DNA from: Streptomyces armeniacus
Lineage (GTDB): Bacteria > Actinomycetota > Actinomycetes > Streptomycetales > Streptomycetaceae
Direction: 5' to 3'
NCBI RefSeq assembly: GCF_003355155.1
Contig: NZ_CP031320.1
Location: 186,001 to 250,000 of the forward strand
DNA: 64,000 nucleotides
The notes below the pieces were generated by a model, which saw nothing but the letters and a program-made list of their open reading frames with translations, was not told the origin of the DNA and searched no databases. Shown one piece after another: positions 3,643-46,471 of this stretch. The translations under genes and the position numbers were made by a program. Position 1 is the first letter of the stretch; every line of letters begins with the position of its first letter.

Positions 3643-3800
3643 ATCCAGCCCGTCTCTCCGATTGACGACGGGCGTACGGCCGCGCCACCCAGCCGGTCCG
3701 CCGGTTGGCGAGGTCGGGAGGCCGCGGCATCCAGCCCGTCTGCCGGTTGGCGACGGCGGGAGGCCGCGGCATCCAGCCCGACCGGCGTTTGAGGACGGCC
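3643..3800 (+). repeat. Tandem block of four degenerate copies of the interspersed hairpin repeat
   Basis: The laccase-to-aminotransferase gap holds four copies, about 43 bp apart, of a unit built on ATCCAGCCCGTC...GGTTGGCGACGG. The last copy (3771-3800) is the closest to the consensus CAGCCCGTCCGGCGTTTGAGGACGGCC, with one base changed. The two middle units share the flank AGGCCGCGGC, which indicates local duplication. No gene is evident between 3618 and 4099. Short direct repeats of ACGTACGCAC lie at about 4019-4046. Confidence 0.8.
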
Positions 3801-4099
3801 CTCAGCCACGGTGGTGCCGAGGCGGGTCGCACGCCGCGGACCACCCCGCGGGGGCGTGGCCTCGCGCCGCACCGGTGCGCACCGGCGGCGCGGGCCGCCC
3901 ACCGGGCCGTGGGGGCCCGGATGCGTCCTCAGGCGCCGGACGGGCTGGACGGGCGGCACGGGCCGTACGGCGCATGTCGCCCGCCGCCCCGGACACCCGT
4001 CTGCCAGAGTGACCGTGACGTACGCACACGTACGCACACGTACGTATGCGCAGCGCGCCTGAAGAGCGCGAGGGACAGCGGAACGGTGGAGGCAGGCCG

Positions 4100-5545: not shown

Positions 5546-5576
5546 GGTCCGTCCTCAAACGCCGGACGGGCTTGAT
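5546..5576 (-). repeat. Interspersed hairpin repeat copy
   Basis: On the plus strand this reads GTCCGTCCTCAAACGCCGGA then CGGGCTTGAT, the reverse complement of the consensus. It lies just past the stop of the DedA gene, between two convergent genes, where its CCGTCC/GGACGG arms could form a hairpin and help end transcripts. Confidence 0.85.
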
Positions 5577-7191: not shown

Positions 7192-7220
7192 TTCAGCCCG
7201 TCCGGCGTTTGAGGACGGCC
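7192..7220 (+). repeat. Interspersed hairpin repeat copy
   Basis: The sequence CAGCCCGTCCGGCGTTTGA followed by GGACGGCC matches the consensus exactly. The outer arms GCCCGTCC and GGACGGCC pair with one mismatch around a 9-nt loop. Together with the inverted copy at 7342-7371 it brackets about 120 bp of the gap 7139-7561, in which I see no gene. Confidence 0.9.
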
Positions 7221-7341
7221 CGGAGCGGCCACCGGCCGGCGGCGGGCCTGGTGCGCGGCCATTCCGCTGCCGGGTTTCCGGTCACCCGGGCCGTCGCGAC
7301 GGGACCGGCGCGGGGCACAGCGCGCCTCCGCCGTGGCCGGG

Positions 7342-7371
7342 GGCCGTCCTCAATCGCCGGACGGGCTTGAT
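7342..7371 (-). repeat. Interspersed hairpin repeat copy (inverted relative to 7192)
   Basis: The plus strand reads GGCCGTCCTCAATCGCCGGA then CGGGCTTGAT. The preceding GTGGCCGGGG also precedes the copy at 38900, so the true unit is longer than the 27-bp core. Confidence 0.9.
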
Positions 7372-14425: not shown

Positions 14426-14572
14426 GACAGTAGTCGGGGCCGGTGGGCCCCACAACCGGGCCCCCTTACGGGACGGTGTCGCCCCGTTTACCCTTTTTAC
14501 GCCTCGGGGAGGCGCCGTTCCCTTCGGCGGCGGTACCCCCCCCGGTGGCCGGGCGCGGGCTCGTCGTGGCCG

Positions 14573-14604
14573 AGGACCGTTCTCAATCGCCGGACGGGCT
14601 TGAT
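14573..14604 (-). repeat. Interspersed hairpin repeat copy
   Basis: The plus strand reads GGACCGTTCTCAATCGCCGG then ACGGGCTTGAT, with one changed base in the upstream arm. It lies 24 bp beyond the stop of the VOC gene on its downstream side, consistent with a transcript-end element. Confidence 0.8.
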
Positions 14605-14627
14605 CGGGCGCGCCTTGAGGGCTGGTT

Positions 14628-22633: not shown

Positions 22634-23560
22634 ATGCGCGACCCGCGCATGAAGACCGTCGGCAAGGGACTGCGCCGCCGAGGACGGCTGATCGCCGCGG
22701 CGCTGCGACCCCCGGGCGGCGCGCCGGGAGCGGGCACGGGCGGCGGCGCCGGTGCCGCCGGGACGGTGCCGGCGGTGCCGGACTACGGCCGGACCAGCCA
22801 GGACTACGCCGCCCCGCGCGCGTCGCGGCTCGTCGAGTCGCCCGTCTTCGTACTCTCCCCGGTCCGCTCCGGATCGACCCTGCTGCGCGTCATCCTGAAC
22901 AGCCACCCCGACATCCGCGCCCCGCACGAGATGCACCTGCGCACGCTGAACGTACGCATGGGCCGCGACTTCACGCCCAGCGCGATGCGCGAACTGGAGC
23001 TGGACAAGGACGAACTGGAGCACCTGCTCTGGGACCGCGTCCTCCACCTCGAACTGGAGCGCAGCGGAAAGCGGGTGATCGTCGACAAGACCCCGCCCAA
23101 CACGCTGATCTGGCCCCGGCTGCGGCGCTGCTGGCCCGACGCGCGCTACCTCTTCCTGCTGCGCCACCCGGCGGCGGTCGTCTCCTCCCTCGTCAACCGC
23201 AGGCGAGAGCCGGACCTGGAGCAGATCCACAGCGAGGTCCTGGAGTACGCCGAACGCCTCGAGGACGCGCGCACGGAACTGAACGGGCACACCGTCACGT
23301 ACGAGCACCTCACCGCGGAGCCCGAGAAGGCCACCCGGGACATCTGCCGCTACCTGGACGTGGAATGGGACGCGGCCATGCTCGACTACGGCGAGCAGGA
23401 CCACGGCAGCTTCCGCCCGCACATCGGGGACTGGAGCAGCAACATCAAGTCCGGCCGCATCCAGCCTGCGAGGCAGCCGGGGGACGACGTGGAGCTGCCG
23501 GTGCGGCTCGCGCAGATCGCGGGGGCGTGGGGCTACCACTCGAGCCCGTCCGGCGATTGA
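22634..23560 (+). CDS. PAPS-dependent sulfotransferase family protein
   Basis: The protein is 308 residues from the ATG at 22634. The 5'-phosphosulfate-binding loop is FVLSPVRSGSTLLRVILNS near residues 74-92, with VDKTPPN and FLLRHPAAVVSSL (3'-phosphate binding) following as in prokaryotic sulfotransferase_3-type proteins. It would transfer sulfate from PAPS to an unknown acceptor. About 35 Gly/Ala-rich residues precede the core. Its last codons (SPSGD-stop) and stop codon are encoded by the interspersed repeat at 23542-23568, so the natural C-terminus seems to have been replaced or extended by the repeat. Confidence 0.85.
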   Translation: MRDPRMKTVGKGLRRRGRLIAAALRPPGGAPGAGTGGGAGAAGTVPAVPDYGRTSQDYAAPRASRLVESPVFVLSPVRSGSTLLRVILNSHPDIRAPHEMHLRTLNVRMGRDFTPSAMRELELDKDELEHLLWDRVLHLELERSGKRVIVDKTPPNTLIWPRLRRCWPDARYLFLLRHPAAVVSSLVNRRREPDLEQIHSEVLEYAERLEDARTELNGHTVTYEHLTAEPEKATRDICRYLDVEWDAAMLDYGEQDHGSFRPHIGDWSSNIKSGRIQPARQPGDDVELPVRLAQIAGAWGYHSSPSGD

Positions 23561-23568
23561 GGACGGCC
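23542..23568 (+). repeat. Interspersed repeat supplying a stop codon
   Basis: GAGCCCGTCCGGCGATTGA then GGACGGCC overlaps the 3' end of the sulfotransferase gene. The TGA at 23558-23560 inside the repeat is the stop codon. It faces the inverted copy at 23661 across the convergent gene pair. Confidence 0.92.
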
Positions 23569-23660
23569 CGGATCGGCCATGGTCGGCACTGAGTCCGGCC
23601 GCTGAGCAACGCCGGTGAGACGGCGGTCCGCTGGCCAAGCGTCGCGACATCGTGGCTGAC

Positions 23661-23733
23661 GGCCGTCCTCAAACGCCGGACGGGCTGGGGTCGTGCCCCG
23701 ACGGGCTGGGGTTGTGCCCCGACGGGCTTGATT
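23661..23733 (-). repeat. Interspersed repeat with duplicated arm, supplying the fdhD stop codon
   Basis: The plus strand reads GGCCGTCCTCAAACGCCGGA then CGGGCT. Two further 21-bp copies of the CGGGCT side (GGGTCGTGCCCCGACGGGCT and GGGTTGTGCCCCGACGGGCT) follow. The TCA at 23669-23671 is the fdhD stop on the minus strand. The duplicated arms encode the last residues of FdhD as SPSG repeats. Confidence 0.9.
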
Positions 23734-33092: not shown

Positions 33093-35528
33093 GTGCACAG
33101 GAAGAACCGCAAACTGAGAATCCGCCTCGCGGCCTTCGCGAGCGCCCTGCTCGTCGGCGGACTCACCGTCGGCATCAGCCCCACGACGCAAGCCGCCCCC
33201 GCACCCAAGAAGGACAAGCCCGCCGCGGCGGACTTCCAGCAGGTCACCCTGGCGAAGGGCGAGCCCGAGATGGGCGAGCCCATGACCATGGCCGTGCTCC
33301 CGGACAAGTCCGTGCTGCACACCTCGCGCGACGGCACGGTCCGGCTGACCGACGAGGGCGGCACCACCTCGGTCGCCGGGCGGATCCCCGTCTACTCCCA
33401 CGACGAGGAAGGGCTCCAGGGCGTCGGCATCGACCCCGGGTTCAGCGAGAACCGCTTCGTCTACCTCTACTACGCACCGCCGCTGGACACGCCGGCCGGA
33501 GACGCCCCGGAGAGCGGTTCCGCCGCGGACTTCGAGCCGTTCAACGGCGTCAACCGGCTGTCCCGGTTCGTGCTCAAGGAAGACGGCACGCTGGACGCCG
33601 GCAGCGAGACCAAGGTGCTCGACGTACCCGCCAGCCGCGGCATCTGCTGCCATGTCGGCGGTGACATCGCGTTCGACGCCGACGGCAACCTGCTGCTGTC
33701 CACGGGCGACGACGGCAACCCGTTCCAGTCCGACGGGTTCACGCCCATCGACGAACGCGCGGACCGCAACCCCGCGTTCGACTCGCAGCGCTCCTCGGCC
33801 AACACCAACGACCTGCGCGGCAAGATCCTGCGCATCAAGGTCAACGCGGACGGCTCGTACGACGTCCCGGAGGGCAACCTCTTCGCGCCCGGCACCGAGA
33901 AGACCCGGCCGGAGATCTACGCGATGGGCTTCCGCAACCCGTTCCGCATGACGGTCGACAAGCCCACCGGCACCATCTACGTCGGCGACTACGGCCCCGA
34001 CTCGGGCACCGCCGACCCGGCACGCGGGCCCGCCGGGCAGGTCGAGTTCAACCGCGTCACGGAGCCGGGCAACTACGGCTGGCCGTACTGCACGGGCAAG
34101 AACGACGCGTACACCGACTACGACTTCGCCTCCGGCACCTCCGGCGCGGCCTTCGACTGCGCCGCCCCGGTGAACAACTCGCCGAACAACACCGGCCTGG
34201 AGAAGCTGCCGGCCGCCAAGCCCGCCTGGATCCCCTACGACGGCGCCTCCGTGCCGGAGTTCGGCGACGGCTCGGAGTCCCCGATGGGCGGCCCGGTCTA
34301 CCGCTTCGACAAGGACCTCGACTCGCCCAAGAAGTTCCCGCAGGAGTACGACGGCGACTTCTTCGCCGGCGAGTTCGGGCGCAAGTGGATCAAGCGCATC
34401 GAGCAGGGTGACGACGGCTCCGTGACCTCCATCAACGACTTCCCCTGGAGCGGCACCCAGGTGATGGACATGGACTTCGGCCCGGACGGCGCCCTCTACG
34501 TGCTCGACTACGGCACCGGCTACTTCGCGGGCGACGAGAACTCCGCGCTGTACCGCATCGAGAACGCCACCGAGGGCCACGCGCCCGTCGCCGAGGCCTC
34601 GGCCGACGTGACGAACGGCCAGGCACCGCTCGACGTCGCGTTCTCAGCCAAGGGCACGGACGCCGACGGCGACGAACTCACCTACTCCTGGGACTTCGGC
34701 GACGGCAGCACCGGCGAGGGCACCGAGCCCACGCACACGTACCAGGAGAACGGCACGTACAGCGCCACCGTGACCGCGACCGACCCCTCGGGGCTCACCG
34801 GCACCGCCTCGGTCCAGGTCACCGTGGGCAACACCGCGCCGACCGTGGAGATCCAGCAGCCGGTGGACGGCAAGCCGTTCAACTTCGGTGACGCCATCCC
34901 GTTCGAGGTGAAGGTCAGCGACCCCGAGGACGGCGAGATCGACTGCTCCAAGGTCAAGGTCACGTTCATCATCGGCCACGACTCGCACGGCCACCCGCAG
35001 ACCTCGGCGAACGGCTGCTCCGGCACGCTGCAGACCAAGGCGGACGGTGAACACGACCCCAACGCGAACATCTTCGGCGTCCTCGACGCCGAGTACACCG
35101 ACAACGGTGCCAACGGCCAGCCCGCGCTGACCACGCACGACCAGGGCACCCTGCAGCCCAAGCACCGCCAGGCCGAGCACTTCTCCGAGTCCGCCGAGGG
35201 CGTCACCGTCGGCGACGCGGAAGGAGCCGAGGGCGGCAAGGCCGTCACCGAGATCAAGGACGGCCAGTGGATCTCGTTCAGCCCGTACGCGCTCAGCGGC
35301 GTGACCGAGCTGGCCGCGCGGGTCAACGCGACCGCGGAGGGCTCCATCGAGGTACGCGCGGGTGCCGCGGACGGCACGCTCGTGGGCACCGTTCCGGTCG
35401 CCGCCGGAGACGGCTGGCAGGACCTCGAGGCCGCGCTGGAAGGCGCGCCGGCCGACGCCTCCAGCCTCTACCTGGTGTTCAAGGGCACCGGGTTCAGCCT
35501 CGACAGCTTCACCGTGACCAGCAGCTGA
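33093..35528 (+). CDS. Secreted PQQ-type sugar dehydrogenase with PKD and CBM6-like domains
   Basis: The 811-residue protein has a signal peptide (FASALLVGGLTVGISPTTQA). A glucose/sorbosone dehydrogenase beta-propeller covers roughly residues 55-490, with GICCHVGGDIAFD, AMGFRNPFRMTVD and GNYGWPYC. A PKD repeat lies at about 495-580 (YSWDFGDGSTGEG). A C-terminal region of about 120 residues resembles a carbohydrate-binding module (YALSGVTELAARVNA, IEVRAGAADG). The propeller is the same family as the C-terminal domain of the gene at 1-2443. It probably oxidises a sugar outside the cell using PQQ. The next gene follows by 21 bp, so they form one transcript. Confidence 0.92.
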   Translation: MHRKNRKLRIRLAAFASALLVGGLTVGISPTTQAAPAPKKDKPAAADFQQVTLAKGEPEMGEPMTMAVLPDKSVLHTSRDGTVRLTDEGGTTSVAGRIPVYSHDEEGLQGVGIDPGFSENRFVYLYYAPPLDTPAGDAPESGSAADFEPFNGVNRLSRFVLKEDGTLDAGSETKVLDVPASRGICCHVGGDIAFDADGNLLLSTGDDGNPFQSDGFTPIDERADRNPAFDSQRSSANTNDLRGKILRIKVNADGSYDVPEGNLFAPGTEKTRPEIYAMGFRNPFRMTVDKPTGTIYVGDYGPDSGTADPARGPAGQVEFNRVTEPGNYGWPYCTGKNDAYTDYDFASGTSGAAFDCAAPVNNSPNNTGLEKLPAAKPAWIPYDGASVPEFGDGSESPMGGPVYRFDKDLDSPKKFPQEYDGDFFAGEFGRKWIKRIEQGDDGSVTSINDFPWSGTQVMDMDFGPDGALYVLDYGTGYFAGDENSALYRIENATEGHAPVAEASADVTNGQAPLDVAFSAKGTDADGDELTYSWDFGDGSTGEGTEPTHTYQENGTYSATVTATDPSGLTGTASVQVTVGNTAPTVEIQQPVDGKPFNFGDAIPFEVKVSDPEDGEIDCSKVKVTFIIGHDSHGHPQTSANGCSGTLQTKADGEHDPNANIFGVLDAEYTDNGANGQPALTTHDQGTLQPKHRQAEHFSESAEGVTVGDAEGAEGGKAVTEIKDGQWISFSPYALSGVTELAARVNATAEGSIEVRAGAADGTLVGTVPVAAGDGWQDLEAALEGAPADASSLYLVFKGTGFSLDSFTVTSS

Positions 35529-35549: not shown

Positions 35550-36959
35550 ATGCAGCGCACAGCACGCCTGGCGACCATCGCGGCGGCTCTGCTTCTCGGC
35601 TCGGCTGCCCTGCCCGCCGGACACGCCGCGGAGTCCGCGGCGCCGGCCGCAGCAGAGGCCGGAAAGGAAGCCGGGAAAGAGAAGAAGGACAAGAAAGACA
35701 AGAAGGAGGGCGAGAACGTCCTGGTCTTCTCCAAGACCGCCGGCTTCCGCCACGACTCCATCCCCGACGGCATCGCCGCCGTACAGCAGCTCGGCGAGGA
35801 GAACGGCTTCACGGTCGAAGCGACCGAGGACGCCGCCCGGTTCACCCCGGAGAACCTCGCCAAGTACGACGCCGTGGTGTGGCTGTCGACGACCGGCGAC
35901 GTGCTCGACGACGCGCAGCAGACGGCGTTCGAGGAGTACGTGCAGGCCGGCGGCGGCTATGTCGGCGTCCACGCGGCGGCCGACACGGAGTACGACTGGC
36001 CCTGGTACGGGCAGCTCGCAGGCACGTACTTCGACTCGCACCCGGCCATCCAGGAGGCCACGGTGCACGTCGAGGACCACGAGCACCCGGCGACCGAGCA
36101 CCTCGAGGACAGCTGGGTGCGCACGGACGAGCTGTACAACTACCAGTCCAACCCCCGTGCCCGGACGCGGGTGCTGGCCACCCTCGACGAAAGCACCTAC
36201 ACCGGCGGGAACATGGGTGACGACCACCCGATCACCTGGTGCCAGGACTTCGACGGCGGACGGTCGTTCTACACCGGGCTCGGGCACACCAAGGAGTCGT
36301 ACGCCGAGCCCGAGTTCCGGCAGCACCTGCTCGGCGGCATCCAGTACGCGACCGGGGCCGTCGAGGCCACGTGCGCGCCTCCCGGCGGCGGTGACGAACC
36401 GGGCTACACGCCCATCTTCGACGGCACCTCACTGGACGGCTGGCAGCAGGCCGGTCCCGGCTCGTTCGAGCTGAACGACGACGGAACCATGACCTCCACC
36501 GGGGGCATGGGCCTGCTGTGGTACGAGGCCAAGCAGTTCTCCTCGTACTCGCTGAAGCTCGACTGGAAGATGGCCGGGGACGACAACTCCGGTGTCTTCA
36601 TCGGCTTCCCCGCCTCCGACGACCCGTGGTCGGCGGTCGACAACGGCTACGAGATCCAGATCGACGCCACGGACGCCGAGGACAAGACGACGGGCGCCGT
36701 CTACGGCTTCCAGTCCGCCGACATCGAGGCCCGCGACGGCGCGCTCAACCCGCCGGGGGAGTGGAACACGTACGAACTCGTCGTCGAGGGCGAGAACCTG
36801 AAGCTCTACCTCAACGACGTGCTGATCAACGACTTCACGAACACCGACCCCGTCCGCAGCCTCACCGACGGCCACGTCGGTCTGCAGAACCACGGGGACG
36901 GCGACGAGGTTTCGTTCCGGAACGTCCGAGTGAAGGAGCTGACCACACCGGTACCGTAG
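35550..36959 (+). CDS. Secreted ThuA domain - 3-keto-disaccharide hydrolase (DUF1080) fusion
   Basis: The 469-residue protein has a signal peptide (IAAALLLGSAALPAGHA), then a Lys-rich linker. A ThuA domain follows at about residues 55-275 (VLVFSKTAGFRHDSIPDG, VGVHAAADTEYDWPW, GGRSFYTGLGHT). A DUF1080 jelly-roll follows at about 285-465 (YTPIFDGTSLDGWQ, DDNSGVFIGFP, YGFQSADIEARDG). DUF1080 proteins include hydrolases of 3-keto-glycosides, and ThuA occurs with trehalose and 3-keto-sugar use. With the dehydrogenase just upstream this gives an extracytoplasmic oxidise-then-cleave pair. Catalytic residues cannot be confirmed by eye. Confidence 0.92.
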   Translation: MQRTARLATIAAALLLGSAALPAGHAAESAAPAAAEAGKEAGKEKKDKKDKKEGENVLVFSKTAGFRHDSIPDGIAAVQQLGEENGFTVEATEDAARFTPENLAKYDAVVWLSTTGDVLDDAQQTAFEEYVQAGGGYVGVHAAADTEYDWPWYGQLAGTYFDSHPAIQEATVHVEDHEHPATEHLEDSWVRTDELYNYQSNPRARTRVLATLDESTYTGGNMGDDHPITWCQDFDGGRSFYTGLGHTKESYAEPEFRQHLLGGIQYATGAVEATCAPPGGGDEPGYTPIFDGTSLDGWQQAGPGSFELNDDGTMTSTGGMGLLWYEAKQFSSYSLKLDWKMAGDDNSGVFIGFPASDDPWSAVDNGYEIQIDATDAEDKTTGAVYGFQSADIEARDGALNPPGEWNTYELVVEGENLKLYLNDVLINDFTNTDPVRSLTDGHVGLQNHGDGDEVSFRNVRVKELTTPVP

Positions 36960-37485: not shown

Positions 37486-38595
37486 GTGACCGAGGACCGA
37501 ACAGGCGTGTGGCTCATCGGAGCCCGCGGCTCCGTCGCCACCACCGCGATCGCCGGCTGCGCGGCCGTCGCCGCGGGGCTCCATCCCGCCACGGGAATGG
37601 TCACCGCGACCGACCCCTTCGCCGACAGCGGACTGCCACCCCTGGAGACCCTCGTCTTCGGGGGCCACGACACGGCGCACACCCCGCTGCCCAAACGGGC
37701 CGAGGAACTCGTCACCTCCGGCGCCCTCCCGCACGGCCTGCCCGCCGCACTCCGCGCCGAACTGTCCGCAGCCGACGACGCGTTGCGCCCCGGCGGGCCC
37801 TGCCCCGACGACCCGCGCGGCGAGGAGGAGCTGATCGACGCCTTCGCCGCCGACCTCGACGGCTTCCGGCGCACGCACGGACTCGCCCGTGTCGTCGTGA
37901 TCAACGTCGCCACCACGGAACCCGTTCCCGCCGGGGACGCCGCCCTGCCCGCCAGCTCCCTCTACGCGGCGGCGGCGCTGCGCGCGGGCTGCCCGTACGT
38001 CAACTTCACCCCCTCCGCCGGGCTCCACCACCCGCGGCTGCGGGCAGAGGCGGAGCGCTCGGGGCTCCCGTACGCGGGCCGCGACGGCAAGACGGGGCAG
38101 ACGCTGCTGCGCTCCGTACTGGCGCCGATGTTCGCGCAGCGCGCCCTGTCCGTACGGTCCTGGTCCGGCACGAACCTGCTCGGCGGCGGCGACGGGGCCG
38201 CCCTCACCGACCCCGGCGCGGCCGCGGCGAAGAACGCCGGCAAGGCCCGGGTGCTGTCCGACACCCTCGGCGAACTCCCCGAGGGCGAGCTGCACATCGA
38301 CGACGTACCGGCGCTGGGCGACTGGAAGACCGCCTGGGACCACGTCGCGTTCGACGGCTTCCTCGGCTCACGCATGATCCTCCAGACCATCTGGCAGGGC
38401 TGCGACTCGGCACTCGCCGCGCCCCTCGTACTGGACCTCGCGCGCCTGCTCGCACGCGCCCACGAAGTGGGCCTGGCCGGGCCGGTCGACGGCCTCGGCT
38501 TCTACTTCAAGGACCCTGACACCGGGTCGAGCGCCCTGCCCGAACAGTGGCGCGCACTGCTGTCCCTCGCCGCCCGCCTCGGGGCCCGCCCGTGA
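37486..38595 (+). CDS. Myo-inositol-1-phosphate-synthase-like cyclase at the head of an ebo-type operon
   Basis: The GTG at 37486 follows GGGAGG by 6 nt and gives 369 residues. It has the NAD-binding start VWLIGARGSVATTAIAG, the block VNFTPSAGLHHPRLR, and the synthase signatures DGKTGQTLLRSVLAPMF and SWSGTNLLGGGDGAA. These match the actinobacterial branch of inositol-phosphate synthases, which cyclise glucose-6-phosphate or a related sugar phosphate. Its stop overlaps the eboC start. In classical ebo clusters the cyclase is the dehydroquinate-synthase-like EboD; here this unrelated cyclase seems to fill that place. A product of inositol phosphate or an analogue is inferred, not shown. Confidence 0.9.
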   Translation: MTEDRTGVWLIGARGSVATTAIAGCAAVAAGLHPATGMVTATDPFADSGLPPLETLVFGGHDTAHTPLPKRAEELVTSGALPHGLPAALRAELSAADDALRPGGPCPDDPRGEEELIDAFAADLDGFRRTHGLARVVVINVATTEPVPAGDAALPASSLYAAAALRAGCPYVNFTPSAGLHHPRLRAEAERSGLPYAGRDGKTGQTLLRSVLAPMFAQRALSVRSWSGTNLLGGGDGAALTDPGAAAAKNAGKARVLSDTLGELPEGELHIDDVPALGDWKTAWDHVAFDGFLGSRMILQTIWQGCDSALAAPLVLDLARLLARAHEVGLAGPVDGLGFYFKDPDTGSSALPEQWRALLSLAARLGARP

Positions 38596-40226
38596 ACGGC
38601 CCCACACGGGTGGCCACGCTGGTGGCGGCGGGGGCACTCACGGTCGCGACCGCGTCGGTGGCCGCCGCCCTGGCGCGCCGCGGGGCGCGCCGCCCCGCGC
38701 GCCACCGGGCGGCGGAAGCCGCTCCGGAGGGGGGCCGGTTGGCGGGGCCCGGCAACGTTGCCATGCCGCCCGAGCCGTACGGGCGTACCCCGTCGACTGC
38801 CGCGCTTCGCCCGGCGCGTGCGGGTCGTCAAGGGATGGCGAGGCCACGGCGGGTGGCCGATCGGGGCGCGCGGCCCAGCGCGGGTGCCTCGTGGCCGGGG
38901 GCCGTCCTCAACTGCCGGACGGGCTTGATGTGGCGCGGGTCGTCCCCATGGCGGGCCCGCCAGGAGGGGGCGAGGGACGCCGACACTGTTGGCACCGGGC
39001 CGCCTGGCCGGCCCGCCGGTGCTCCGGCAACGCCCCGGCAAGGCGCCGTGGGCGCTGGGGCGTTCGGGGTTGTCGGGGTCGCCGTGCTCGGTGTGATCGG
39101 GGCCGTTGGGGTGCCCGTACGGCCGCCGCGCACCGGTGCGCCCAGCGAGCCCCGAGCCGTGGACGTTCCCGCTCGCGGAGCCGCCGAGCGTGCCGCCGAC
39201 TGGGCACAACTGCTGCGCGTGTCGGCCGTGTTCACCGTGCCCGGGGACGCCCTCGCGGGCGCGGCAGCCGCAGGCTGCCGACCGAACCGCGGCACCGTGC
39301 TGGCCATGGGCGCCTCGCTCTGCCTGTACGAGGCAGGTATGGCGCTCAACGACTGGGCGGACCGGCACATCGACGCCGTCGAACGCCCCGACCGCCCGCT
39401 GCCCTCGGGCCGCATCAGCCCGCGCGCGGCGCTCACCGCCGCCGCCGCGCTGACCGCGGCGGGCCTCGGGCTCGCGGCCGCGGCGGGGCGTACGGCGTTC
39501 GGTACGGCAACGGCGCTGGCGGGCGCGGTGTGGGCGTACGACCTGGGCTTGAAGCACACCCCGGCGGGCCCGGCGGCAATGGCCACGGCCCGCGCCCTGG
39601 ACCTCCTCCTGGGCGCCACCGCAACCCGAGCAGCGGCCCCCGCCCCCGCCAAGCCCGCCCGGGGCGTGGGGACGGCCCGTAACCCCGATGAGGCAGTCCG
39701 CCTTGGGGAGCACCCGGGCCTCAGCAAGCCCGTCCGGCGTTTGAGGACGGCCCCCGGCCCCGAGGCACCCGCGTGGGGCCGCGCGCCCCGGCCCGCCACC
39801 GGCGGTGGCCGTGCCAGCCACACCGTACGGAGCGCCGCCCCCGCCGCCGCCCTCCTCGGCGCGCACACCCTCGCCGTCACCACCGTGTCGCGGCGCGAGA
39901 CCGTCGGTGAATCGACGGCGTTGCCGCTCGCCGCGCTGGCGGCCGTCGGCGCGATCGCCGCCGTCACAACCCGCGGCGGCCACAGAACCCCCGTACCCAC
40001 CCTCCTCGCCGCCGCCTACGCGGCCACCGCCGCCCGCCCCCTCGCGCACGCCGTGCTCAACCCGTCGCCGCAGCTGTTCCAGCGGGCGGTCGGCGGCGGC
40101 ATTCGCGCCATGATCCCGTTGCAGGCCGCGCTGGCCGCGCGGTCCGGTTCCGTACGTACCGCTGTGCCGCTGCTCGCGCTGCTGCCGCTGGCACGGCGGC
40201 TGTCCAGGAAGGTGAGCCCCACATGA
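38592..40226 (+). CDS. eboC: UbiA-type prenyltransferase EboC, enlarged by repeat insertions
   Basis: The GTG at 38592 overlaps the previous stop and gives 544 residues, far above the usual 290-330 for EboC. The UbiA core is at about residues 195-350 with the aspartate motif NDWADRHIDAVERPDRPLPSG and the second motif region YDLGLKHTPAGPAAMATARALDLLLG. It resumes from about 410 (LLGAHTLAVTTVSRR). Two foreign segments are present. One, around residues 50-190, contains AVLNCRTGLM and another, around 355-405, contains [11 protein letters not shown]. Each is an in-frame translation of an interspersed repeat copy, in opposite orientation. The core motifs are intact, so activity is possible. The expected role is attaching a prenyl chain to a cyclitol-like head group at the membrane. 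Confidence 0.88.
   Translation: MNGPTRVATLVAAGALTVATASVAAALARRGARRPARHRAAEAAPEGGRLAGPGNVAMPPEPYGRTPSTAALRPARAGRQGMARPRRVADRGARPSAGASWPGAVLNCRTGLMWRGSSPWRARQEGARDADTVGTGPPGRPAGAPATPRQGAVGAGAFGVVGVAVLGVIGAVGVPVRPPRTGAPSEPRAVDVPARGAAERAADWAQLLRVSAVFTVPGDALAGAAAAGCRPNRGTVLAMGASLCLYEAGMALNDWADRHIDAVERPDRPLPSGRISPRAALTAAAALTAAGLGLAAAAGRTAFGTATALAGAVWAYDLGLKHTPAGPAAMATARALDLLLGATATRAAAPAPAKPARGVGTARNPDEAVRLGEHPGLSKPVRRLRTAPGPEAPAWGRAPRPATGGGRASHTVRSAAPAAALLGAHTLAVTTVSRRETVGESTALPLAALAAVGAIAAVTTRGGHRTPVPTLLAAAYAATAARPLAHAVLNPSPQLFQRAVGGGIRAMIPLQAALAARSGSVRTAVPLLALLPLARRLSRKVSPT
38860..38929 (-). repeat. Interspersed repeat inside eboC (left copy)
   Basis: The core GGCCGTCCTCAACTGCCGGA then CGGGCTTGAT is at 38900-38929. 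The upstream flank (GGGGCGCGCGGCCC, then CGCGGGTGCCTCG) is shared with the inverted copy at 39726, so the full unit is at least 70 bp. Confidence 0.92.
39726..39795 (+). repeat. Interspersed repeat inside eboC (right copy, inverted)
   Basis: The core AAGCCCGTCCGGCGTTTGA then GGACGGCC is at 39726-39752. Its flank CGAGGCACCCGCG then GGGGCCGCGCGCCCC is the reverse complement of the left copy flank. The frame used here reads through the repeat without meeting its TGA. Confidence 0.92.
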
Positions 40227-41149
40227 CCCCGCCCGCTGCCCTGCGGCGGTTGGCGTTGGCCTACGGCACCAACGGCCTCGCCGACCTCCGGCTCGACGAC
40301 GCCCTCGCCGTCCTCGCCGAACTCGGCTACGACGGCGTCGGCCTGACGCTCGACCACATGCATCTCGACCCGCTCGCACCGGACCTGGCCCGGCGTACGG
40401 CCGCCGTCGCCAGGTCGCTGGAGCGGCGCGGCCTCTCCGTCACCGTCGAGACCGGCGCCCGCTACGTGCTCGACCCGCGCCGCAAGCACGGCCCGACCCT
40501 TCTGGACGCCGAGCCGGAGGGCCGGGCCGCCCGGGTGGGGTTGCTGTGCACGGCCGTACGGGTGGCCGCCGATCTGGGCGCGCACGCGGTGCACTGCTTC
40601 AGCGGCGTGGCCCCGCCGGGCACGCCGCACTACGAGGCGTGGCAGCGGCTGACCGACGGCATGGGGACCGTACTGGACGCGGCCGACGCCGCCGGTGTGC
40701 CGCTGGCGGTCGAACCGGAACCGGGCCATCTCGTGGAGGACCTGGCGGGGTTCCACCGGCTGCGGATGGCCGTCGGCGGTACGCCGGGGCTCGGCCTCAC
40801 GCTGGACCTCGGCCACTGCCAGTGCCTGGAACCGGCGCCGCCGGAGGAGTGCGTACACGCCGCCGCGCCCTGGCTGCGGCACGTACAGATCGAGGACATG
40901 CGGCGCGGCAAGCACGAGCATCTGCCGTTCGGCGAGGGGGAGATGGACTTCCCGCCGATCCTGGCGGCGCTGCGCGACGTGGGCTACGAGGGGCTGGTCA
41001 CCGTCGAGCTGCCCCGCCACTCGCACGCCGGACCGGCCATGGCGGAGACCTCCCTGCGCTTCCTGCGCGCGGCCGAAGCGGCGGCCGCGCACACGCGGTC
41101 CGCAGCAGCGCCCCACCCCGTACGCCCCGTACAGGAGCAGCCGTGCTGA
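40223..41149 (+). CDS. Xylose-isomerase-like TIM barrel of the ebo operon
   Basis: The ATG overlaps the eboC stop by 4 nt. The 308-residue protein has the AP-endonuclease-2/xylose-isomerase barrel with a full metal set: LAVEPEPGH, LTLDLGHCQ, RHVQIEDM and VTVELPRHSH. It starts LALAYGTNGLADLRL and lacks a signal peptide. It is distinct from EboE, which is encoded three genes on, and looks like an extra component of the actinobacterial version of the cluster. It may act on the cyclitol or sugar made by the inositol-phosphate-synthase-like enzyme. Confidence 0.88.
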   Translation: MTPPAALRRLALAYGTNGLADLRLDDALAVLAELGYDGVGLTLDHMHLDPLAPDLARRTAAVARSLERRGLSVTVETGARYVLDPRRKHGPTLLDAEPEGRAARVGLLCTAVRVAADLGAHAVHCFSGVAPPGTPHYEAWQRLTDGMGTVLDAADAAGVPLAVEPEPGHLVEDLAGFHRLRMAVGGTPGLGLTLDLGHCQCLEPAPPEECVHAAAPWLRHVQIEDMRRGKHEHLPFGEGEMDFPPILAALRDVGYEGLVTVELPRHSHAGPAMAETSLRFLRAAEAAAAHTRSAAAPHPVRPVQEQPC

Positions 41150-41946
41150 GGGCCGAGGCGCTGTACGAGGCGCTGCGGCGGCGGCTCGGTGAGGACGCCC
41201 GTACGTGGCTGGACAGCGCGCTGGAGGAGGCGCGGCAGTCCGCCGCGGCCGACCCCGGCACAGGTCCCGGCCCCGATCCCGGCACCGGCCCCGACCCCGG
41301 CACCGGCACCGGCACCGGCGCCGATTCCGGCACGCAGCAGCCGGACGCGGCTCAGGGCGCCCGGCGCCCCATACCCGCCTGGGAGTTGCGGTTCGCGTCG
41401 GCAGGCCGCCACTGCCGCGTCCGCCCGGGAGAAGACCCGGACGGCACCGACGACCCCGACGGCACCGACGACCCCGCCGACGCCGCCCGCGTCCTCCTCC
41501 TGCACGCCGCCCGCCCCGGCCCCGACACCCTCACCCGCCTCTACACCCGCGGCAGCGCCGCCGAACGCCGCGCCGTGCTGCTCGCGCTGCCGCGGCTGCC
41601 GGTCGGCGCCGGTGCCGTGCCGCTCGTCGAGGACGCCCTCCGCGCCAACGACACCCGGCTCGTCGCCGCGGCCGTCGGCCCGTACGCCGCCGCGCACCTC
41701 GGCGCCCACGCGTGGCGGCAGGCCATTCTCAAGTGCCTGTTCACGGGAGTGCCCGTGGCCGCCGTGGCGGAGCTGCCTGAGCGGGCCGCGGGCGACGCCG
41801 AACTCGCCCGGATGCTGCACGACTACGCCGCCGAACGGACCGCCGCGGGCCGCCCCGTACCGGACGACCTCCACCGCGTGCTCGCGCTCACCGCGAAGGA
41901 CGCGCTCACCGCGAAGGACGAGGAGAAGGAGGAGAAGGAGTCCTGA
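41143..41946 (+). CDS. eboA: EboA-domain protein
   Basis: The GTG at 41143 overlaps the previous stop and has AGGAGCAGCC before it. The 267-residue protein begins LRAEALYEALRRRLGEDARTWLDSAL and carries the helical EboA region (RLYTRGSAAERRAVLLALPRLP, AWRQAILKCLFTGVPVAAV). EboA has no known biochemical activity. Two low-complexity segments are inserted: a Pro-Gly-Thr tract near residues 35-62 and repeats of DPDGTD near 95-107. The C-terminus ends in an EEKEEKES tail. The family call rests on the conserved helices and the operon context. Confidence 0.85.
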   Translation: MLRAEALYEALRRRLGEDARTWLDSALEEARQSAAADPGTGPGPDPGTGPDPGTGTGTGADSGTQQPDAAQGARRPIPAWELRFASAGRHCRVRPGEDPDGTDDPDGTDDPADAARVLLLHAARPGPDTLTRLYTRGSAAERRAVLLALPRLPVGAGAVPLVEDALRANDTRLVAAAVGPYAAAHLGAHAWRQAILKCLFTGVPVAAVAELPERAAGDAELARMLHDYAAERTAAGRPVPDDLHRVLALTAKDALTAKDEEKEEKES

Positions 41947-42800
41947 TGCGCATCTTCGACCCCCACATCCACATGACCTCACGGACCACGGACGACTACG
42001 CCGCCATGTACGCGGCCGGTGTCCGCGCCCTGGTCGAGCCGTCCTTCTGGCTCGGCCAGCCCCGTACGGCCCCCGAGACGTTCTACGACTATTTCGACGG
42101 GCTGCTGGGCTGGGAGCCGTTCCGTGCCGCGCAGCACGGCATCGCCCACCACTGCACCCTCGCGCTGAACCCCAAGGAGGCCAACGACCCGCGCTGCCTC
42201 CCCGTCCTGGACGAGCTGCCGCGCTACCTCGTCAAGGACTCCGTCGTCGCCGTCGGCGAGATCGGCTACGACTCGATGACCCCCGCCGAGGACGCCGCGC
42301 TCGCCGTACAGCTGCAACTGGCCGCCGACCACGGCCTCCCGGCGCTCGTGCACACGCCGCACCGGGACAAGGCGGCGGGCCTGGCCCGTACGGTCGACGT
42401 CGTACGCGAGTCCGTGCTCGACCCCGCGCTCGTCCTGCTGGACCACCTCAACGAGACGACGGTGGACGCCGCCGCCGACAGCGGCTGCTGGCTCGGCTTC
42501 TCCATCTACCCCGACACCAAGATGGACGAGCACCGCATGGTCCGCATCCTCCGCTCGCACGGCGGCTGCCTGGACCGCATCCTCGTCAACTCCGCCGCCG
42601 ACTGGGGCAACAGCGACCCCCTCAAGACCCGCGCCGTCGGCGACGCCATGCTCGCCGCCGGCTTCACCGACGACGAGGTGGACCAGGTGCTGTGGCGCAA
42701 CCCCGTCGCGTTCTACGGCCTCAGCGGACGCCTCGACCTGGACGTCGTACGGCCCGAGCCGACCCACGAGGGCAACTCGCTGCTGCGCGGCGGTGAGTGA
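41946..42800 (+). CDS. eboB: TatD-family metal-dependent hydrolase (EboB-like)
   Basis: The ATG shares a base with the eboA stop. The 284-residue barrel has metal-ligand motifs FDPHIHM, VVAVGEIGYD, ALVHTPH, LDHLNE and NSAADW, as in the amidohydrolase-type TatD family. In ebo clusters this gene is EboB. It would hydrolyse an ester, amide or nucleotide-type bond of the pathway intermediate. The following gene overlaps by 4 nt. Confidence 0.88.
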   Translation: MRIFDPHIHMTSRTTDDYAAMYAAGVRALVEPSFWLGQPRTAPETFYDYFDGLLGWEPFRAAQHGIAHHCTLALNPKEANDPRCLPVLDELPRYLVKDSVVAVGEIGYDSMTPAEDAALAVQLQLAADHGLPALVHTPHRDKAAGLARTVDVVRESVLDPALVLLDHLNETTVDAAADSGCWLGFSIYPDTKMDEHRMVRILRSHGGCLDRILVNSAADWGNSDPLKTRAVGDAMLAAGFTDDEVDQVLWRNPVAFYGLSGRLDLDVVRPEPTHEGNSLLRGGE

Positions 42801-43981
42801 CGATGCGGTTCCGGCACCCGGACGGCTCCACCGTCCACCTCTCGTACTGCACCAACGTCCACGCGGCGGAGGATCTCGACGGCGTGCTGGCGCAGTTGGG
42901 CACGTACGCCGAGCCCGTACGGCGGCGGCTGCACCGGGACCGGCTCGGTATCGGCCTGTGGCTGGCGCGCGACGCCGCCCACGCGCTGACCTCCGACCCG
43001 GCGTCGCTGCGCCGCCTGCGCGGCGAGCTCGACGCGCGCGGCCTGGAGGTCGTCACGCTGAACGGCTTCCCCTACCAGGGGTTCGGCGACGAGTACGTCA
43101 AGTACCGCGTGTACCGCCCCGACTGGACCGAGCCCGACCGCCTCGAGCACACCGCCGACCTGGCCCGGCTGCTTGCCGCGCTGCTCCCGGACGACGTCAC
43201 CGACGGCAGCGTCTCCACCCTGCCGCTCGCCTGGCGCACCGGCTTCGACGCGGACCGCCGCCGTACGGCGCTGGGCGCGCTCACCGCGCTCGCCCGGCAG
43301 CTCGACGCGCTGGAGGAGCTGACCGGCCGCAGCATCCGCATCGGCCTCGAACCCGAGCCGGGCTGCACGGTCGAGACCACCGCCGACGCGGTCGCCGCGC
43401 TCACCGGCGACGGGGCGCCGCCCGCGCACCGTATCGGCGTGTGCGTGGACACCTGCCACCTCGCCACCTCCTTCGAGGACCCCGACCGCGCGCTGCCCGC
43501 CCTCGCCCGCGCGGGACTGCCCGTCGTCAAGGCGCAGCTGTCGGCGGCGCTGCACGCCGAGGAGCCGCACCGCCCCGACGTACGTGCCGCCCTGGCCGAC
43601 TTCGCCGAGCCGCGCTTCCTGCACCAGACCCGGGTCCGTACGGGTGCCGGGCTGCGCGCCACCGACGACCTCGACGAGGCCCTCACCTCCGGCGCGCTGC
43701 CCACCGAGGCGCCCTGGCGCGCCCACTTCCACGTGCCGCTGCACGCGCCGCTCCGGCCGCCGCTGACCGCGACGCTGCCGGAACTACGGGCGGCGCTGGG
43801 GCAGTTGGTCGGCGGTACGGAGCCGCTCACGCACCACCTGGAGGTGGAGACGTACACCTGGCAGGCGCTGCCGGACGGGCTGCGCCCCCGCACCCGCGCC
43901 CAGCTCGCCGACGGCATCGCGGCCGAACTGGGCGTCGCCCGCGACCTGCTGACCGACCTCGGGCTCAAGGAGCTGCCATGA
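42797..43981 (+). CDS. eboE: Metabolite traffic protein EboE (TIM barrel)
   Basis: The GTG at 42797 (or the ATG two codons on) starts a 394-residue protein with the EboE pattern LSYCTNVHAAEDLDGVLAQL, LNGFPYQGFGDEYVKYRVY, and the metal site IGLEPEPGCTVET and GVCVDTCHLATSFED. EboE is a xylose-isomerase-like protein needed, with other Ebo proteins, for moving the scytonemin precursor to the periplasm in a cyanobacterium. In actinobacteria its substrate is unknown. Neighbours overlap on both sides. Confidence 0.92.
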   Translation: MTMRFRHPDGSTVHLSYCTNVHAAEDLDGVLAQLGTYAEPVRRRLHRDRLGIGLWLARDAAHALTSDPASLRRLRGELDARGLEVVTLNGFPYQGFGDEYVKYRVYRPDWTEPDRLEHTADLARLLAALLPDDVTDGSVSTLPLAWRTGFDADRRRTALGALTALARQLDALEELTGRSIRIGLEPEPGCTVETTADAVAALTGDGAPPAHRIGVCVDTCHLATSFEDPDRALPALARAGLPVVKAQLSAALHAEEPHRPDVRAALADFAEPRFLHQTRVRTGAGLRATDDLDEALTSGALPTEAPWRAHFHVPLHAPLRPPLTATLPELRAALGQLVGGTEPLTHHLEVETYTWQALPDGLRPRTRAQLADGIAAELGVARDLLTDLGLKELP

Positions 43982-45405
43982 CCGAACCCGCCGGCCCCGA
44001 AGCCGCACCCGCGCATCCCCTGCTCGTGCTCGACGTCGTCGGCCTCACCCCCCGGCTGCTCGCGCACATGCCGCGGCTGCGCGCCCTCGCGGACTCCGGC
44101 TCGTACGCGCCGCTCGGCACCGTCCTGCCCGCCGTCACCTGTGCCGCGCAGTCCACGTTCCTGACCGGGGTGCCACCGGCCGAGCACGGCATCGTCGGCA
44201 ACGGCTGGTACTTCCGCGAGCTCGGCGAAGTCCTCCTGTGGCGCCAGCACAACGCCCTCGTCGGCGGCGAGAAGCTGTGGGACGCCGCCCGCGCCGCGCA
44301 TCCCGGCTACACCGTCGCCAACATCTGCTGGTGGTACGCGATGGGCGCCGACACCGACTGGACCGTCACGCCCCGGCCCGTCTACTACGCCGACGGCCGC
44401 AAGGAACCCGACTGCTACACCCGCCCCCCGGACCTGCACGACGAACTCACCGACGCCCTCGGCACGTTCCCCCTCTTCACCTTCTGGGGCCCGCGCGCCG
44501 GCCTCACCTCCTCGCAGTGGATCATCGACGCCACCCGGCACATTCTCCGCACCCGCAAGCCCGACCTCGCCCTCTGCTACGTCCCCCACCTGGACTACGA
44601 CCTCCAGCGCCACGGCCCCGACGACCCGCGCGCCCGCGCCGCCGCCACCGCCCTGGACGCCGCGCTCGCCCCGCTGCTGGACGACGCGGCCGCGGAGGGC
44701 CGTACGGTCGTCGCCCTGTCCGAGTACGGCATCACGCCCGTCTCCCGCCCCGTGCACATCAACCGCGCGCTGCGCCGCGCGGGACTGCTGGAGGTGCACA
44801 CGCAGGACGGAATGGAGTATCTGGACCCGTGGACCTCGCGGGCGTTCGCCGTCAGCGACCACCAGATCTCGCACGTCTACGTCCGCCGCCCCGAGGACCT
44901 GCCGGCCGTGCGAGAGGCGCTGGACGGGCTCGACGGCATCGCCGAACTCCTCGACGCCGACGGCAAGAAGACCCACGGCCTCGACCACCCCCGCGCCGGC
45001 GAACTCGTGGCCGTCGCCGAGTCCGACGCCTGGTTCACGTACTACTACTGGCTGGACGACGCCCTCGCCCCCGACTTCGCCCAGCTGGTGGAGATCCACC
45101 GGAAGCCCGGCTACGACCCGGCCGAACTGTTCATGGACCCGCTCGACCCGTACGTACGGCTGCGCGCCGCCACCGCACTCGCCCGCAAGAAGTCCGGGAT
45201 GCGCTACCGCATGGCCGTCGTGCCGCTCGACCCCTCTCCCGTACGCGGCAGCCACGGGCGGCTGCCCGACAGCGAGGAGGAGGGGCCGCTGATCCTCTGC
45301 TCCCGACCGGACGCCGTCACCGGCTCCGTCGACGCCACCGAGGTCAAACGGCTCCTGCTGGACCTCGCCCTGAACCCACAACGCACGACAGGAGACGCGT
45401 CATGA
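43978..45405 (+). CDS. eboF: Alkaline phosphatase/nucleotide pyrophosphatase superfamily protein EboF
   Basis: The ATG overlaps the eboE stop. The 475-residue protein has the superfamily pattern LLVLDVVGLTPRLL, the nucleophile region PAVTCAAQSTFLTGVPPAEHG, and the metal blocks YVPHLDYDLQRHG, VVALSEYGI and AVSDHQISHVYV. It is cytoplasmic by lack of a signal. EboF-type enzymes are predicted to hydrolyse a phosphodiester or diphosphate such as an activated prenyl or nucleotide intermediate. Function in the pathway is inferred. Confidence 0.9.
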   Translation: MTEPAGPEAAPAHPLLVLDVVGLTPRLLAHMPRLRALADSGSYAPLGTVLPAVTCAAQSTFLTGVPPAEHGIVGNGWYFRELGEVLLWRQHNALVGGEKLWDAARAAHPGYTVANICWWYAMGADTDWTVTPRPVYYADGRKEPDCYTRPPDLHDELTDALGTFPLFTFWGPRAGLTSSQWIIDATRHILRTRKPDLALCYVPHLDYDLQRHGPDDPRARAAATALDAALAPLLDDAAAEGRTVVALSEYGITPVSRPVHINRALRRAGLLEVHTQDGMEYLDPWTSRAFAVSDHQISHVYVRRPEDLPAVREALDGLDGIAELLDADGKKTHGLDHPRAGELVAVAESDAWFTYYYWLDDALAPDFAQLVEIHRKPGYDPAELFMDPLDPYVRLRAATALARKKSGMRYRMAVVPLDPSPVRGSHGRLPDSEEEGPLILCSRPDAVTGSVDATEVKRLLLDLALNPQRTTGDAS

Positions 45406-46166
45406 GAAAGCACCGCCAGAACGCCTCCCGTTCCACTGACGGCACCGAACTGGACCGCAAGCTGCGCCGCCGCGGCTTCCTCGGCGTCGCCGCCGGCACC
45501 ACCGCGGCCGCCCTGCTGGGCACCGCCGGCACGGCCGCCGCCGCGCCCGCCCCCGCGGGCGCGGGCCTGAGACCGGCGGTGCCGCGCGGGCGGCTCGGCA
45601 TCCAGCTCTACACGCTCCGCGACCAGATCCAGTCCATGGGCTTCGCCCGCGTCTTCGAGGAGCTGGCCCGCTACGAGTACGACGAGGTCGAGTTCGCCGG
45701 CTACACCCAGGGCACCGGCGACATCAGCCTGAAGCAGCTGCGCCGGCTGCTGCGCGACAACGGGCTCGACCCGGTCGGCAGCCACGTCGGCTACCACGCC
45801 GACGGCGGCGACCCGGACTCGTACACCTTCGCCACCCAGCTCGAGAAGGTCCTCGACGACGCGGCGGCACTCGGCGCCCCGCACGTCGGCACGCCCGCCA
45901 GCCCCAACCGGTACGGGAACACGGTCGACGCCTGGAAGAAGGCCGCCGAGGAGTTCAACACGTACGGCGAGGCCGCCCGCGCCCGCGGCCTGAAGTTCTA
46001 CCAGCACAACCACGCCGAAGAGTTCGGCTTCGCCGAGGACCGGCCCGACGTGCGCCTCTACGACATCCTCCTCGCCGAGACCGACCCGCGGCTGGTCTAC
46101 CTGGAGATGGACATCTACTGGGCGTACTGCGGCCAGTACAAGTACTGGCCGCAGTACGCCCAGTAG
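45402..46166 (+). pseudogene. Truncated Tat-exported sugar isomerase/epimerase TIM barrel
   Basis: The ATG overlaps the eboF stop. A twin-arginine leader (RRRGFLGVAAGTTAAALLGTAG) precedes a TIM barrel (LGIQLYTLRDQI, FYQHNHAEEFGFAE, YLEMDIYWAYC). The frame ends at residue 254, whereas family members run about 330-345 residues. The last third, which would carry the HVKD histidine and the final glutamate ligands, is missing. The cut coincides with the perfect 45-bp inverted repeat at 46094-46187, whose right arm supplies the last codons (PQYAQ-stop). The protein is probably inactive. Either a rearrangement or an assembly fold-back error could explain this. Confidence 0.85.
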
Positions 46167-46187
46167 ATGTCCATCTCCAGGTAGACC
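46094..46187. repeat. Perfect 45-bp inverted repeat with 4-nt loop
   Basis: Left arm 46094-46138 and right arm 46143-46187 are exact reverse complements, separated by CAAG. The left arm is native coding sequence of the isomerase gene (starting GGTCTACCTGGAGATGG), so the right arm is the inverted copy. Both strands carry a TAG placed symmetrically (46164-46166 and 46115-46117), so the two convergent proteins end in nearly the same 23 residues. RNA from either side would form a very strong hairpin. Confidence 0.98.
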
Positions 46188-46471
46188 GGGACGCGCCGTC
46201 CCGCCTGGGGGGGAGCGACGGGTGGGTGGACGCGGGGGTCGCCGGTCTGGGTGCCGACGAGTTCGTCCAGGGGTACGCCGTGCGCCTTGGCCAGGGGCAG
46301 CAGGAGCTTCAGGGTGGGCTCGCGCTGCCCCGACTCCAGGCGGGAGAGCGTGCTCGTGGAGATCCCCGTGGAGGCGCTGAGCTGGGTCAGGGTGGCGCCG
46401 CGTGCGTGCCGGAGGGCGCGCAGGCGGGGGCCCACGGCGGTGAGTACGTGTGCGAGGTCGTCGTCGCCCAT
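46115..46471 (-). pseudogene. XRE-family regulator truncated before its cupin domain
   Basis: The reading frame gives 118 residues. Residues 10-70 are a good helix-turn-helix (TLTQLSASTGISTSTLSRLESGQREPTLKLLLPLAKA) followed by LDELVGTQTGDPRVHP, the usual link to a C-terminal cupin domain. After residue 95 the sequence becomes VYLEMDIYWAYCGQY, which is the inverted isomerase fragment, and the cupin (about 90 residues) is absent. Homologues of about 190 residues commonly sit divergent from a thioredoxin-reductase-like gene, as here. DNA binding may survive; ligand sensing should not. Confidence 0.8.

Follow-up and report, generated by a model that had tools for sequence, protein, structure and literature searches.

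An ebo-type operon with an inositol-phosphate-synthase-like cyclase

We analysed a 64,000-nucleotide window of the Streptomyces armeniacus genome (positions 186001–250000 of contig NZ_CP031320.1, here C1 of genome G000, a single-contig genome of 8.08 Mb) that contains a relative of the ebo operon, a six-gene unit, eboABCDEF, defined by Yurchenko et al. in 2016 (PMC5133447). Eight plus-strand genes occupy positions 37486–46166 of the window, and open reading frame (ORF) reading together with profile scans places every neighbouring pair in an overlapping or abutting arrangement. This agrees with the initial annotation, which had described an eight-gene ebo-type operon: all eight genes are present on one strand, are coupled and can be named from Pfam and NCBIfam families.

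The first gene (37486–38595) encodes a myo-inositol-phosphate synthase (MIPS)-like cyclase that stands in for EboD (Pfam NAD_binding_5, 113 bits; Inos-1-P_synth, 99 bits). It is followed by a UbiA prenyltransferase at the EboC position (38592–40226), a xylose-isomerase-like TIM barrel of the epimerase/isomerase type that we call TIM1 (40223–41149; Pfam, 150 bits), an EboA domain protein (41143–41946; NF035938, 163.7 bits, cut-off 50, scanned as 41146–41946), the TatD-like hydrolase EboB (41946–42800; PF01026, 37.7 bits), EboE (42797–43981; NF035939, 425.6 bits, cut-off 250), EboF of the type I phosphodiesterase/nucleotide pyrophosphatase family (43978–45405; PF01663 Phosphodiest, 224 bits) and a C-terminally truncated exported TIM barrel with a twin-arginine-like signal recognized by eye (45402–46166; PF01261, 41.9 bits). 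GTG 41143 is the more likely start of the EboA gene. The conserved core is the first seven genes, and the exported TIM barrel stands beside it.

The operon shares with eboABCDEF homologues of EboA, EboB, EboE and EboF and a UbiA protein at the EboC position, all within one operon; the EboB and EboF proteins are homologues of those in EboD-type clusters. It differs in lacking EboD, in possessing MIPS and TIM1, and in having a prenyltransferase of a separate NCBIfam family, SCO3242 (NF045897, 354.6 bits, cut-off 260), which scores below the cut-off of the EboC equivalog (NF035940, 131.7 bits against 250). The EboA protein likewise fails the narrower EboA family model (NF035937, 65.3 bits against a cut-off of 320).

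EboD was not found in the operon, and the whole genome yields a single PF01761 match (C1:1528180, 145 bits), which lies 1.3 Mb from the operon and is in the AroB range. In a calibration set of 13 genomes from other phyla, matches to the 3-dehydroquinate (DHQ) synthase family fall mainly at about 152–175 and about 112–123 bits, which we read as AroB and EboD, respectively; three of these genomes (G395, G404 and G442) have the lower-scoring group only. The source genome has no second gene of this family, which bears out the proposal in the initial annotation that the cyclase occupies the place of EboD and speaks against an eboD elsewhere that accompanies all such clusters.

The closest solved relative of the window MIPS by sequence is Archaeoglobus fulgidus Ino1 (PDB 1u1i; 8e-55, 189.9 bits), which acts outside the ebo context in which the window enzyme is found. 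The mycothiol-type Ino1 equivalog TIGR03450 scores 28 bits against a cut-off of 638, and a maximum-likelihood tree separates the ebo MIPS from housekeeping Ino1 (support 100/100). A phylogeny grouping the cyclase with housekeeping inositol synthesis, which would have told against the initial annotation, was thus not obtained. Eleven of 13 positions compared with the archaeal enzyme are identical and are invariant in 68 of 68 ebo MIPS, among them D225, N255, K274, K278, K306, D332 and K367; position 198 varies, and position 335 is leucine instead of valine. Apart from the residues covered by the literature, we presume the positions compared to be key sites. The lysine network, N255, K278 and K367 are reported to be important in MIPS (PMC11348189). 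With its key residues kept, the enzyme looks active as a MIPS.

Joint exchange of MIPS and TIM1 for EboD

Of 394 Actinomycetes genomes, 98 have some EboE match, and in 90 the match exceeds the curated cut-off. We searched 80 of the 90 for MIPS, SCO3242-family UbiA and DHQ synthase, leaving out six genomes of genus g37 and four of genus g1; the 80 contain 84 EboE loci. Among the matches listed, a MIPS lies within 12 kb of EboE at at least 71 loci and an SCO3242-family UbiA at at least 77, and no DHQ synthase lies within 50 kb at any of the 84. A later search located a MIPS within 5 kb of EboE in four more genomes (G039, G123, G225 and G340), bringing the count to 75 loci. The remaining nine comprise five orphan EboE loci, one additional ebo copy each in G057 and G301, and the loci of G191 and G028. 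An extra DHQ-synthase-family match of 96–127 bits, a score within or close to that of EboD, occurs in seven of the 80 genomes (G082, G095, G146, G173, G295, G301 and G345), in no case within 50 kb of EboE. The survey of actinobacterial neighbourhoods that the initial annotation called for therefore came out in its favour, and supports the replacement of EboD by MIPS as the rule across the Actinomycetes sampled.

Presence across genomes gives the same picture. With an ebo-type MIPS profile built from five sequences (four from Actinomycetes, including that of the window, and one from Gemmatirosa) and four candidates scored per genome, 84 of the 394 genomes have a match of at least 417 bits. Every one of the 84 also has EboE, and the 304 genomes lacking EboE above the cut-off contain no ebo-type MIPS (Fisher p 2.8e-79, kinship ignored). 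Only in G028 among the Actinomycetes is an ebo operon present in a genome that lacks an ebo-type MIPS. G191 (loci L035 and L036) keeps only a MIPS remnant (82 bits) at its ebo locus, and an intact ebo-type MIPS is found on another contig, where it adjoins a gene resembling the exported TIM barrel. One second ebo copy without MIPS (L033) lies beside an inositol-monophosphatase-family gene and a flavin oxidoreductase gene. The EboE matches in G040, G068, G177, G256 and G295 were considered as cyclase-less ebo operons and rejected, as tblastn found no other ebo gene with them. Four of the five orphan loci were judged by eye: L039, L040 and L042 look like sugar-transporter/dehydrogenase operons, and L043 looks like a set of unrelated genes.

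The exchange is not confined to the cyclase. Among 157 EboE loci longer than 8 kb, 70 contain MIPS and 71 contain EboD, with no locus containing both, and TIM1 is present at 68 of the 70 MIPS loci but at none of the 71 EboD loci. Because TIM1 accompanies MIPS and never EboD, what has been exchanged for EboD is the pair of MIPS and TIM1. The initial annotation was right about the cyclase and had listed the TIM barrel, without connecting it to the swap. By fold and by its invariant acidic and histidine residues TIM1 is a sugar epimerase/isomerase TIM barrel; it resembles sugar isomerases, including the isomerase Art22, with sequence matches too weak for naming a function.

Outside the Actinomycetes, a scan of public genomes for EboE ranked 582 loci by similarity to an alignment led by Gemmatirosa, and we scored the best 80, an uneven sample in which no genome is titled as an actinobacterium. 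EboD is present at 69 of these 80, MIPS at none and neither at 11; six genomes from the last group were checked, and four (G396, G426, G437 and G442) have an EboD-range match elsewhere. EboE is also found in 48 plasmid records, ten of which were opened. Five (Ketogulonicigenium, Deinococcus, Azospirillum, Mycetohabitans and Aureibacter) have an annotated 3-dehydroquinate synthase and no MIPS, three annotated Streptomyces plasmids have an inositol-3-phosphate synthase and no 3-dehydroquinate synthase, and tblastn detects MIPS but not EboD on the Nonomuraea and Gemmatirosa plasmids, which lack annotation. On a Streptomyces camelliae plasmid (L054) a gene of the ScyD/ScyE family, named after scytonemin proteins, lies directly 5′ of MIPS.

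EboE matches occur in three of 298 Gemmatimonadota genomes, two of them above the cut-off. Ebo-type MIPS is found in three of 150 (534–612 bits, next match 254 bits), the same three as EboE, with the Gemmatirosa MIPS itself being part of the profile. In two of these, Gemmatirosa (G522, the record of L061) and G513, MIPS and TIM1 lie inside the ebo cluster and the only DHQ synthase is in the AroB range. The initial annotation had proposed an actinobacterial pathway; the swap does hold in Actinomycetes, but is not limited to them. Chloroflexota gave no ebo-type MIPS among 400 genomes (best match 308.9 bits).

The downstream proteins of these Gemmatimonadota clusters are related to those of EboD-type operons. 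Gemmatirosa EboE, and EboF of both Gemmatirosa and G513, nest among EboD-type sequences beside two EboD loci, L064 (Gemmatimonadota) and L063 (Rokubacteriota), and EboC of Gemmatirosa and G513 is sister to that of L064 (Shimodaira–Hasegawa-like approximate likelihood ratio test (SH-aLRT) 100). Gemmatirosa and L064 are 61%, 60% and 74% identical in EboC, EboE and EboF, respectively. The cyclase labels need two changes on the EboF tree and two on the EboC tree, or one on the EboC tree without the MIPS-type Gemmatimonadota sequences. The EboE tree needs one change, with its Gemmatirosa entry (L249, a short locus) labelled as having no cyclase; we read this entry as MIPS-type, since L061 covers the same place at greater length. 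All three trees are quick searches and the EboC trees carry a long-branch warning. On these gene trees the cyclase switched at least twice, and the kinship of the Gemmatimonadota EboC with EboD-type sequences indicates that the prenyltransferase lineage was retained through the change of cyclase. In the MIPS tree the actinobacterial ebo enzymes form one group (87/77), and the Gemmatimonadota enzyme groups with two further clades, MIPS-2 and MIPS-3 (90/77). A single clade of Gemmatimonadota and actinobacterial ebo MIPS is not rejected (approximately unbiased test, p-AU 0.222), so a common origin of the two is possible.

Genes and repeats around the operon, and the MIPS-2 clade

Two plus-strand genes upstream of the operon encode proteins that appear by eye to be secreted: a glucose/sorbosone dehydrogenase (GSDH)-like protein with PKD and CBM6 domains (33093–35528; Pfam GSDH, 133 bits, PKD, CBM_6) and a protein combining ThuA (295 bits) with a 3-keto-disaccharide hydrolase (DUF1080) domain (35550–36959; 3keto-disac_hyd, 154 bits). 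Both accompany MIPS-type ebo operons in many Streptomyces. With queries taken from MIPS loci, which favours those loci, 3-keto hydrolase, ThuA and GSDH are all present at 27 of 70 MIPS loci, and one or more of the four genes, counting the exported TIM barrel, at 41 of 70; among EboD loci, ThuA or 3-keto hydrolase is found at 0 of 71, and GSDH or the exported barrel at 8 of 71. In a Gemmatimonadota metagenome-assembled genome (MAG) (L162), GSDH-, ThuA- and 3-keto-hydrolase-type domains are fused in one protein beside MIPS, TIM1 and UbiA genes. The DUF1080 domain is that of 3-keto-glycoside hydrolases linked to sugar use (PMC9007349), whereas the window protein flanks a biosynthetic operon. Going by this neighbourhood, it is possible that the upstream proteins oxidize and cleave a glycoside of the ebo product outside the cell.

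The downstream end of the operon is marked by a perfect palindrome with 46-nucleotide arms and a 2-nucleotide spacer (46094–46187), which ends both the exported TIM barrel gene and a facing helix-turn-helix (HTH) gene (46115–46471, minus strand). It cuts the TIM barrel about 100 residues short in an alignment with seven relatives, and the HTH gene ends in the mirrored peptide. The palindrome may have arisen by a fold-back rearrangement or be an artefact of sequencing. The exported TIM barrel of the initial annotation is thus present, though with its C terminus cut and not as an intact member of the operon. A dispersed repeat of 122 nucleotides occurs twice, in frame, in the prenyltransferase gene: within the N-terminal extension (38833–38954; blastn, 84% over 122 nucleotides) and, inverted relative to this copy, as an insertion in the UbiA domain (39698–39819). 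Shorter relatives of the repeat lie at 3770–3874, 5546–5574, 7195–7221, 7307–7371, 14547–14612 and 23543–23686. In other Streptomyces, such as G182, G208 and G371, the match of this gene to the EboC profile is likewise interrupted.

The MIPS-2 clade is represented by L259, L260, L262 and L159, from three Actinomycetes genomes and one alphaproteobacterial MAG, with a TIM1-like gene (51–52% identity) about 4–6 kb away. At L159 the ORFs next after the MIPS-2 and TIM1-like genes look by eye like a glycosyltransferase and a PIG-L-like protein. Two alphaproteobacterial loci without a local EboD or MIPS (L072 and L088) were candidates for a third cyclase type, but inspection of the upstream ORFs by eye gave none. 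Their genomes (G402 and G415) have a DHQ synthase in the AroB range only, and each carries a MIPS-2 gene on a contig other than that of the ebo locus; in G415 a TIM1-like gene is about 5 kb away from MIPS-2, and none was seen by the MIPS-2 of G402 in the 12 of 18.9 kb viewed. G028, the genome whose ebo operon is without an ebo-type MIPS, has a MIPS-2 with a TIM1-like gene nearby. We regard cyclitol supply in trans by MIPS-2 as a lead. Since G277 and G196 have MIPS-2 clusters in addition to an ordinary MIPS-type ebo operon, and G093 has a MIPS-2-range match without EboE, MIPS-2 is not ebo-specific.

A proposed route to the ebo head group

The non-homologous replacement in the ebo operon is real, and it is both regular and recurrent. 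In the published tree EboD lies near sedoheptulose-7-phosphate cyclases, and Yurchenko et al. proposed that it makes a C7 cyclitol (PMC5133447). Operons without EboD were put down there to possible deletions or draft gaps. Actinobacterial TIM barrel–EboA fusions are mentioned as data not shown; these are probably the same two proteins that are neighbours in the window. The main text does not mention MIPS and contains the word ‘inositol’ 0 times. Our literature search, which covered few subscription papers, found no paper linking MIPS with ebo or describing the swap.

On balance, we favour the reading that MIPS and TIM1, two unrelated enzymes probably acting in series, have taken the place of EboD in this ebo operon and supply the cyclitol head for EboC. 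MIPS would convert glucose 6-phosphate to an inositol phosphate, EboF or a housekeeping phosphatase would perhaps strip the phosphate, and TIM1 would turn the MIPS-derived compound into a cyclitol accepted by EboC. EboC would then add a prenyl chain, and EboA, EboB and EboE may finish the compound at the membrane for a role in metabolite traffic or similar. Because EboC, EboE and EboF remain sisters across the exchange in Gemmatimonadota, the route through MIPS and TIM1 and that through EboD probably lead to head groups that are identical or closely alike.

Several observations weigh against this reading. The MIPS product lacks a keto group and keeps its phosphate, unlike the products of characterised EboD-family cyclases, so that arriving at the same head would take additional steps, for which the enzymes named above are guesses. 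MIPS relatives can also make other rings, as exemplified by 6k96. The linkage of the two exchanged genes has exceptions, with the extra ebo copies in G057 and G301 carrying TIM1 without MIPS and one MIPS operon (G079, L170) having no TIM1 in place. In the Gemmatimonadota MIPS-type clusters (G522 and G513) EboA was not found, and EboE of G513 is split across two frames. Finally, the Gemmatimonadota MAG G395 has EboD and EboE on one contig (L064) and MIPS, TIM1 and UbiA on another (L162). We rejected an arrangement of both cyclases in one operon, as no exact overlap joins the contig ends and the UbiA fragment on one contig is not the same sequence as that on the other, which points to two UbiA genes; G395 either has both routes or is a mixed bin.

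The strongest competitor, which we consider less likely but a real contender, is that the head made by MIPS and TIM1 is a different one, of the C6 inositol type, which enters the same downstream machinery that takes a C7 cyclitol in EboD-type operons. The position of EboD among the sedoheptulose-7-phosphate cyclases would fit, and in our trees the Actinomycetes EboE form a deeply separate clade and their EboC a separate group, as expected with a changed substrate; the closeness of EboC, EboE and EboF between MIPS-type Gemmatirosa and EboD-type L064 argues the other way. A further alternative, which we think unlikely, is that the MIPS homologue makes another carbocycle, as we take Ari2 to do in aristeromycin biosynthesis. 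The five-membered-cyclitol-phosphate synthase 6k96 is indeed among the PDB matches of the window enzyme, and the likeness of TIM1 to sugar isomerases includes Art22, but the match to 6k96 reaches 46 bits against the 189.9 bits to Archaeoglobus Ino1, and the lysines and other key positions of Ino1 are conserved. It seems very improbable that the operon MIPS is a second source of inositol for housekeeping lipids or mycothiol, unrelated to EboD. Seven of the 80 genomes (G007, G117, G131, G204, G239, G289 and G321) have no PF01658 match apart from the ebo MIPS, so that any MIPS-made inositol in them would come from the ebo operon, but in the other 73 a gene away from the ebo loci also matches PF01658. 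Moreover, no ebo-type MIPS was found without EboE in the 394 genomes, none shares a locus with EboD, and the tree places the enzyme at a great distance from housekeeping Ino1.

EboD may itself make a C6 inositol-type cyclitol and not the C7 compound valiolone, with one prenylated inositol- or inosose-type lipid or carrier made throughout by two unrelated routes; we offer this as a speculation that is more doubtful than not. EboC-type enzymes of the Maribacter, Zobellia and Algoriphagus ebo clusters farnesylate 8-hydroxyquinoline-2-carboxylic acid in vitro, and the Maribacter enzyme reacted with six of 14 aromatic acceptors but not with phenols or catechols (PMC9235831). These aromatic acceptors temper the idea of a prenylated inositol.

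The replacement also bears on a well-studied Streptomyces cluster. SCO3242 and SCO3243 of Streptomyces coelicolor, a putative transferase and a myo-inositol phosphate synthase, are listed in the CDA cluster (PMC3610822). Compared by name, they match the window operon in having the same prenyltransferase family and a MIPS neighbour, and differ in being counted as part of an antibiotic cluster and not as ebo genes. The replacement suggests that the pair belongs to an ebo pathway.

The ebo operon is widespread and has been tied to the export of a scytonemin precursor (Klicki et al. 2018; PMC6282210), and the identity of its product is not given in the literature found. The recurrent substitution of EboD by a member of a well-understood reaction family provides an independent handle on the ebo head group. 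MIPS and TIM1 must make either the product of EboD or something that EboC accepts instead, which turns a structural question about the ebo product into an enzyme assay.

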